NCBI RefSeq assembly: GCF_002407185.1
Contig: NZ_CP023563.1
Location: 2,294,001-2,358,000, forward strand
Reading direction: 5' to 3'
Origin: Brachybacterium vulturis
GTDB lineage: Bacteria > Actinomycetota > Actinomycetes > Actinomycetales > Dermabacteraceae
Length of the DNA: 64,000 nt
Shown here: piece by piece, positions 6,717 through 6,841 of the stretch
Position numbering within the stretch: position 1 is the first letter of the stretch
How the letters are laid out: every line of letters begins with the position of its first letter
Made by a program: the position numbers and the translations under genes
Notes under the pieces: generated by a model
Database searches by the model: none
Told to the model about the DNA's origin: nothing
Seen by the model: only the letters and a program-made list of their open reading frames with translations

Positions 6717-6722
6717 TACCGT
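6717..6722 (+). promoter_or_regulatory. -10 box for the leuA leader transcript
   Basis: TACCGT ends 7 bases before the ATG of the leucine leader peptide, so transcription would begin at or next to that ATG (leaderless leader peptide). No good -35 was found. Confidence 0.4.
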
Positions 6723-6729
6723 GACGCAC

Positions 6730-6774
6730 ATGCCTGGATCGCTGCTCCTGCTTAGCCGCCGCGACGGGACCTGA
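6730..6774 (+). CDS. leuL: leuA leader peptide (14 residues, four consecutive Leu codons)
   Basis: The short frame reads [14 protein letters not shown] and stops 67 bases before leuA. The run of four leucine codons (CTG CTC CTG CTT, 6742-6753) directly upstream of a leucine-biosynthesis gene is the hallmark of leucine-responsive attenuation. Leader peptides with Leu runs before leuA are known in other actinobacteria. Ribosome stalling on the Leu run would sit directly on the 5' arm of the hairpin described next. The presence of the peptide is read directly; its control function is inference from the family. Confidence 0.8.
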
Positions 6775-6811
6775 ACGCCGGGACCCCGCCGCGGCTGAAG
6801 TGTTGTCCGGC
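6754..6811 (+). promoter_or_regulatory. leuA leader RNA: hairpin with possible pseudoknot
   Basis: AGCCGC (6754-6759) can pair with GCGGCT (6791-6796), and CGGG (6765-6768) with CCCG (6785-6788). The loop segment GCCGG (6777-6781) can pair with CCGGC (6807-6811) outside the stem, which would make an H-type pseudoknot. The 5' arm begins immediately after the Leu codon run, so a stalled ribosome would block it. Published comparative work described a pseudoknot-type LEU element before actinobacterial leuA; whether this is the same element was not tested. Confidence 0.5.
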
Positions 6812-6841
6812 GACCGGTACTCCAGCGAGAAGGACCCCCAG

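Follow-up and report, generated by a model that had tools for sequence, protein, structure and literature searches.

A putative ribosome-sensing pseudoknot leader of the LEU class upstream of leuA in Brachybacterium vulturis, and its apparent reuse before other branched-chain amino acid genes

Does the short reading frame with a run of leucine codons that precedes leuA in Brachybacterium vulturis belong to a regulatory leader, and by what means would such a leader act? The locus lies within a 64,000-nucleotide stretch of contig NZ_CP023563.1 (assembly GCF_002407185.1, positions 2,294,001 to 2,358,000 of the forward strand), referred to here as the window; the source genome is a single contig of 3.8 Mb. 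Direct reading of window positions 6717-6841 gives, in order, a -10 box, the leader open reading frame (ORF), a GC-rich segment in which two pairings overlap, a Shine-Dalgarno (SD) sequence and leuA (Table 1). A first-pass annotation made from the letters of the window had described this as a compact attenuation switch with a leaderless leader peptide and a pseudoknot-capable hairpin. The comparisons reported below suggest that the tiny leucine-rich peptide gene and the RNA knot together probably sense leucine shortage, and we infer a function as a leucine-responsive attenuation switch.

Table 1. Features of the leuA leader region in the window.
Feature	Coordinates	Strand	Basis
-10 box TACCGT (TANNNT)	6717..6722	+	read directly; 7 nt 5' of leader ATG
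Leader peptide ORF (ATG 6730, stop TGA 6772-6774)	6730..6774	+	read and translated; 161 distinct loci have a homologous leader ORF
Four Leu codons CTG CTC CTG CTT, putative sensor codons	6742..6753	+	read directly
Helix A 5' arm, inside leader codons	6759..6769	+	comparative alignment, covariation, RNAalifold, model R1
Helix A 3' arm	6784..6794	+	comparative alignment, covariation, RNAalifold, model R1
Helix B (pseudoknot) 5' strand, in helix A loop	6776..6782	+	covariation
Helix B (pseudoknot) 3' strand	6806..6812	+	covariation
Candidate base stem P1 5' strand, end of Leu run	6746..6753	+	7/8 positions pairable; weak comparative support
Candidate base stem P1 3' strand, contains leuA Shine-Dalgarno AAGGA 6830-6834	6827..6834	+	read directly; comparison
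leuA, 2-isopropylmalate synthase, presumed regulated gene	6842..8665	+	NCBIfam NF002991 E=2.1e-266

The leucine run mixes its codons, and the 5' arm of helix A begins 5 nt 3' of it, which bears out the annotated position of the hairpin immediately behind the run. Nine of the 11 pairs of helix A form in the window, the mismatches being A6764xC6789 and A6769xC6784, and helix B joins CGCCGGG to UCCGGCG in 7 bp including one G-U. The in-frame GTG at 6721, which overlaps the -10 box, makes an improbable start for the leader. The best segment of LeuA is 91% identical to a Brachybacterium locus. Since the folding energy of the window sequence is ordinary (z -1.24; 19 of 200 shuffles fold as well or better) and the single-sequence fold thus not significant, the case for an element rests on comparison.

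For this purpose 201 leuA loci were gathered, namely L001-L121, which include repeats (the window's own locus is present as L001, L002 and L052), and 80 loci from genome contigs (L122-L201). A script requiring at least three Leu found a leader ORF in 161 distinct loci and 10 duplicates; 14 loci were without one and 16 were without a LeuA start as anchor. At L145 the script chose the wrong ORF and this locus was excluded from the alignment, although the covariance model described below does match its element. The run of four leucine codons noticed in the window thus has its counterpart in a conserved Leu run across leuA loci; in most leader peptides it is followed by a tail such as SCRDEA, RRRDGS or SRRDGT, which codes helix A. 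Arthrobacter-like leaders (L038, L138, L142, L147, L157, L165, L177, L182 and L188) are longer, with a tail SDAI or SAI and extra bases in the helix A loop.

Among 160 aligned leaders, nine of the 11 pairs of helix A are standard in at least 157; the two pairs with mismatches in the window have standard pairing in 132 and 119. Covariation was scored on alignment A3, comprising 55 of 92 representatives; 33 were excluded because of their genus, the length of an insert or an A helix shorter than 9 bp when ungapped, and L097, L098, L114 and L152 were then removed as well. In A3, 98.2% of helix A cells are paired, five of the 11 pairs are changed on both sides, and 26 cells are doubly changed versus 7.9 in shuffles. 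The covariation score exceeds all 500 shuffles, in a test that favours helix A because A3 was selected partly by it (the count over the 160 and 92 leaders covers all), and the pair-count and pair-type measures are equalled by 6 and 10 of 500 shuffles respectively. A helix slid by -3 scores 0.186 against 0.194 for helix A, with 69.6% of its cells paired; RNAalifold on A3 predicts helix A and no other helix.

The suggestion that the hairpin loop could pair downstream gains strong support from helix B. In 89 of the 92 representatives each loop pairs with its own downstream stretch at a mean score of 16.78, compared with 14.64 (sd 0.26) when partners are permuted, and none of 5000 permutations scores as high; here, as in all permutation and Fisher tests of this study, kinship among species is ignored. 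Variants before leuA include GGCCGG/CCGGCC, GACCGG/CCGGUC, AGCCGG/CCGGCU, GGGCC/GGCCC and CGCCGGG/CCCGGCG. Both helices covary, and the loop of helix A with its downstream partner strand makes up an H-type pseudoknot. With a conserved Leu run and covarying pairs both present, the two findings whose absence would have told against the annotation are in place. They also bear on the reading that this is a conserved leader RNA without any sensing role, maintained by promoter and coding constraint: the ordinary single-sequence fold is what such an RNA would give, but compensatory changes occur in both helices and the 3' strands of A and B are non-coding, and we regard this explanation as highly improbable.

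The predicted leaderless start is likewise borne out by conservation. A TANNNT motif starting at -16 to -12 of the leader start is present in 76 of the 92 representatives versus 6 of 1288 control positions, whereas only three of the 92 have an SD-like motif ahead of that start. A strict sigma-70 promoter scan of 6640-6900 returned nothing, and a -35 box was not seen there. The leader peptide is apparently translated from a leaderless transcript, the start in the window being deduced from its sequence; in the accessible account of Streptomyces lividans LeuL1 a leaderless start is reported from RNA data (PMC8079986).

A covariance model, R1, was built from A3, from which the Brachybacterium genus had been left out. 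It nevertheless matches the window at 6745-6825 with E=3e-9, and in the whole source genome the element scores 1.8e-7 with the next best match at 0.03. R1 matches the element in 196 of the first 201 loci (26/31, 84/84 and 86/86), a count that includes the 55 training loci and repeat fetches of one locus; the five without a match are L029, L049, L104, L143 and L189. Rfam leader families give no match at gathering score in the window and none in seven related loci, and at up to E=10 within 6640-6900 give two chance-level matches only, yet R1 matches 377 of the 394 genomes sampled from the class Actinomycetes at E<=0.01 (13 of the 377 more weakly than 1e-6), so that it can serve as an annotation model for the element. 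Many class genomes have two or three R1 matches. A background sample of 119 genomes from the phylum contained 10 members of the class, all of them matched, and 10 of the 109 genomes outside the class also match at E<=0.01, nine of them weakly (4e-4 to 5e-3); a match near E 0.01 therefore means little. The one strong match outside the class but within the phylum is in genome G539 (contig C191:4079-4160, E 1.4e-8).

The first-pass annotation had suspected the published actinobacterial LEU element (Seliverstov et al. 2005, PMC1262725), and by sequence comparison the window element is a member of that class. The assignment follows from R1, which was built without the genus and finds both the window and the loci coding the exact LeuL1 peptide, the published element itself being compared by its description. 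The window has a short ORF with a Leu run upstream of leuA and two overlapping helices forming a conserved pseudoknot, and within its class it is ordinary. According to the published description the two have in common the leader ORF with its Leu run before leuA, the pseudoknot, a candidate base stem with the SD and the lack of a terminator. That description places the element before leuA and inside one transposase, whereas in other genomes it is found here also before leuB, leuC and leuA paralogues, with Val and Ile codons before leuB. The published picture also shows a stronger base stem than the present tests support. Among the literature matches, in which most subscription journals are not covered, the 2005 paper is the only one on the LEU element.

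Three further leaders invite comparison, each through the portions of text available. S. lividans LeuL1 (PMC8079986) shares with the window a leaderless Leu-run leader before leuA and no typical terminator, and its exact peptide, MRFGLLLLSCRGEGL, is coded in L276 and L277, both retrieved by R1; it differs in genus and in the ends of the peptide, and LeuL1 comes from RNA data whereas the window start is deduced. Corynebacterium glutamicum leuL (PMC4046766, PMC8709942, PMC6892785), described as attenuation, also has a leader peptide with four Leu before leuA (MTSRANLLLLRRGGSQRS), and compared at the peptide level this is absent from the fetched loci. The Corynebacterium ilvB-II leader (PMC10272879) shares an upstream ORF rich in branched-chain codons and proposed sensing of charged tRNA; it differs in ending in an intrinsic terminator, and its RNA motif and gene are other ones. 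A riboswitch-like aptamer binding leucine or another metabolite directly could account for a compact conserved knot that closes near the leuA start, but the conserved unpaired bases of a ligand pocket are absent according to the published description (PMC1262725) and sensor codons that depend on the gene, described below, would go unexplained, so that we find this barely credible.

Examination of 41 further R1 sites (13, and 28 of 29 stretches, from two further sets; L308 is an extension and was not used) places the element before leuB at 15, before leuC/leuD at 10, before a leuA paralogue at nine, before a LeuA allosteric domain at two and before an ordinary leuA at one (L252); L250 and L305 are without gene assignment, and L293 and L303 were judged false. 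Profile models confirm LeuB (L299, L304), IlvE (L288), LeuC (L241) and the LeuA paralogue (L280), the other gene names being assigned by reading ORFs. The leuB loci belong to seven families (L249, L281-L283, L285, L288, L290, L294, L297, L299-L302, L304 and L307), and ilvE is next to leuB in at least 10 of the 15. These 15 were chosen because R1 matches there; among the 30 best matches to one LeuB query, R1 matches upstream of leuB in 10, of which four overlap the 15. Before leuC-leuD there is a second element with a poly-Leu leader in one family (L240-L248 and L306, in the last of which only leuD was read), which is probably Microbacteriaceae because Microbacterium loci share its leader peptide.

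Second leuA paralogues follow the element at L251, L280, L284, L286, L289, L291, L292, L295 and L298, and in some of these leaders the Leu run is broken (LFL in L280, FLL in L284, VL in L295). At L287:2187-2621 (-) and L296:510-902 (+) the element precedes an ORF of 131-145 aa, with Val-rich leaders (LVLVV, MLVV). The sole Pfam match of these ORFs is the LeuA allosteric domain PF08502 (E 7.7e-6 and 2.4e-6, just above cut-off), making each a possible stand-alone allosteric domain. The knot is retained at these sites: helix B scores 18.93 in 33 copies versus 14.92 permuted, again with none of 5000 permutations as high (L295, L306, L287 and L296 were left out, and at L302 the script picked helix A wrongly). 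Changes in helix A take forms such as CCGCUGCGG/CCGCAGCGG, and in helix B such as GUCAGCC/GGCUGAC. The strict -10 test is met by 5 of the 15 leuB-type leaders. None of the literature matches listed reports the element before leuB, leuC-leuD, leuA paralogues or the LeuA allosteric domain, most subscription journals not being covered and the leuC search being unspecific, as the term also matches leucine.

The source genome itself shows the element only at leuA. Its leuB starts 36 nt past the end of the upstream frame, and no such leader precedes its leuC; the R1 match L203 (23 bits, E=0.03) falls within a frame of 567 codons and is regarded as a chance match.

What changes between operons is the leader codons. 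Leaders before leuB read MRQVLVLITCRGGA, MRSVLVLIDRRGEA, MRKQLVLIACRGRAS, MARQLVILSSRGEFR and similar, and two or more Val/Ile codons are found in 14 of 15 leaders before leuB versus 1 of 92 before leuA. Rare synonyms are also enriched among them. Of 92 leuA leaders, 85 have CTT as their last Leu codon, compared with 106 of 2737 Leu codons in leuA genes, and the window's leuA uses CTT for 1 of its 50. In leuB leaders GTA makes up 13 of 23 Val codons (11/595 in leuB genes), ATT 6 of 15 Ile codons (4/227) and CTT 8 of 25 Leu codons (8/513). A single tRNA reads both CUC and CUU, and the CTY bias may therefore point to one isoacceptor. Selective tRNA charging theory, in the portion of the source consulted, holds that the codons used for control should be the ones with the greatest sensitivity to starvation (PMC1183508).

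These codons bear directly on the mechanism, which was not settled in 2005. The authors then favoured a protein-binding site, with orthologues of Mycobacterium leprae ML1624, a DEAD-box protein, as candidate, and the leader peptide would be incidental. The strong conservation of the pseudoknot suits that proposal, as do the Streptomyces coelicolor leader codon mutations, whose results are quoted in the accessible text as inconsistent with classical attenuation (PMC1262725). Against it, the leader codons switch between Leu and a Val/Leu/Ile mix according to the operon that follows, rare synonyms are used, and the start is positioned for leaderless translation. Binding of a protein alone is inadequate because it leaves all three unexplained, and the exchange of codons together with their rarity before leuB argues for ribosome-based sensing over the 2005 site; we consider the protein-site proposal distinctly unlikely.

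Our preferred reading, to which we give a probability of roughly 0.6, is that the LEU element acts as a ribosome-sensing pseudoknot leader. Transcription would start at or next to AUG 6730 and the ribosome would load on the leaderless mRNA, as the conserved promoter position and missing leader SD suggest. When leucyl-tRNA is ample the ribosome would reach the UGA and leave, upon which helix A, pseudoknot B and perhaps the base stem with 6827-6834 could form (A and B being shown by covariation, the base stem weakly supported), and the closed fold would hide the leuA SD. When leucyl-tRNA is short the ribosome would halt on the Leu run and sit over both the base strand and the 5' arm of helix A, so that the fold could not close and leuA would be translated.

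The base stem of the Leu run with the leuA SD is a possible component. It was examined in 68 of the 92 representatives, the remainder being without a credible leuA start; an SD-like motif is present at 46 of the 68 leuA starts, a figure inflated because starts were picked partly by SD. Extended by 5 nt, the Leu run pairs better with the pre-leuA stretch of its own species than with those of others (-9.31 versus -8.57 kcal/mol; 7 of 5000 permutations), and the stem scores only with the stretch 3-5 nt beyond the Leu run (24 and 7 of 5000 permutations). For the Leu run alone, pairing within a locus is no better than across species (1210 of 5000 permutations as good), and the third bases of Leu codons do not covary with SD bases (17/61 versus 16.2 expected, p=0.44). 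Pairing is stronger for the actual codons than for synonymous ones sampled from leuA (-8.09 versus -6.53), but the codon bias underlying this may have another cause. In the minimum-energy fold an alternative 5-bp base stem joins UCGCU 6739-6743 to AGCGA 6824-6828, and both strands recur in many congeners.

As to the output, the terminator scan found no intrinsic terminator with a U run in 6640-6900. For this reason the classical trp/leu type of transcription attenuator does not describe the window, and of the annotated attenuation switch that part falls away while a switch role is retained as a prediction. The output is more likely to be control at the start of leuA translation: masking of the SD fits the distance from element start to gene both in the window, 97 nt for leuA, and in L241, 99 nt for leuC. 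Before leuB the start is 217-564 nt downstream of the element start and masking of the leuB SD therefore cannot be the general output; in these copies either a small ORF in between is targeted or the output lies at the transcript level. By eye a small ORF lies between element and leuB in at least nine loci, and none of the four examined has a Pfam match. It is of some 20-40 codons (with ends such as ALDRRDNGGAPAR, ALQEAMDRRDNGGETGH and ERPDDN); in L299 it lies ~110 nt behind the element, and it is also seen in L249, L281, L283, L288, L290, L294, L297, L301, L302 and L307.

A related alternative keeps the ribosome as leucine sensor and moves the output to the transcript, for example through Rho-dependent termination or RNA decay linked to translation of the leader. 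The leuB distances and the weak base stem speak for it, as does the increase of both leuA and leuL transcripts in a C. glutamicum strain lacking (p)ppGpp, 5 min after total starvation, given in the accessible part of PMC6892785. The window has leuA within reach of the knot and no terminator found in 6640-6900, and we treat this alternative as rather unlikely.

Taken across operons, sensing by the ribosome is compatible with a broader picture which we think fairly probable: the LEU element would be a modular pseudoknot cassette of the branched-chain amino acid regulon of Actinomycetes (leuA, its paralogues, leuB-ilvE, leuC-leuD and perhaps the allosteric domain), neither specific to leuA nor protein-binding, in which the knot is constant and the sensor codons are matched to the operon and enriched in rare ones (CTT, GTA, ATT). 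A type of switch predicted in 2005, as far as its description (PMC1262725) goes, thus appears to be reused by related bacteria with other sensor codons before further branched-chain genes. Because the knot is shared there while its rare sensor codons are exchanged, ribosome sensing can be tested directly by codon exchange.

Elsewhere in the window are an RNase P RNA of class A at 49999-50361 and three tRNA genes, at 32979-33052 (-), 35779-35850 and 44882-44955.
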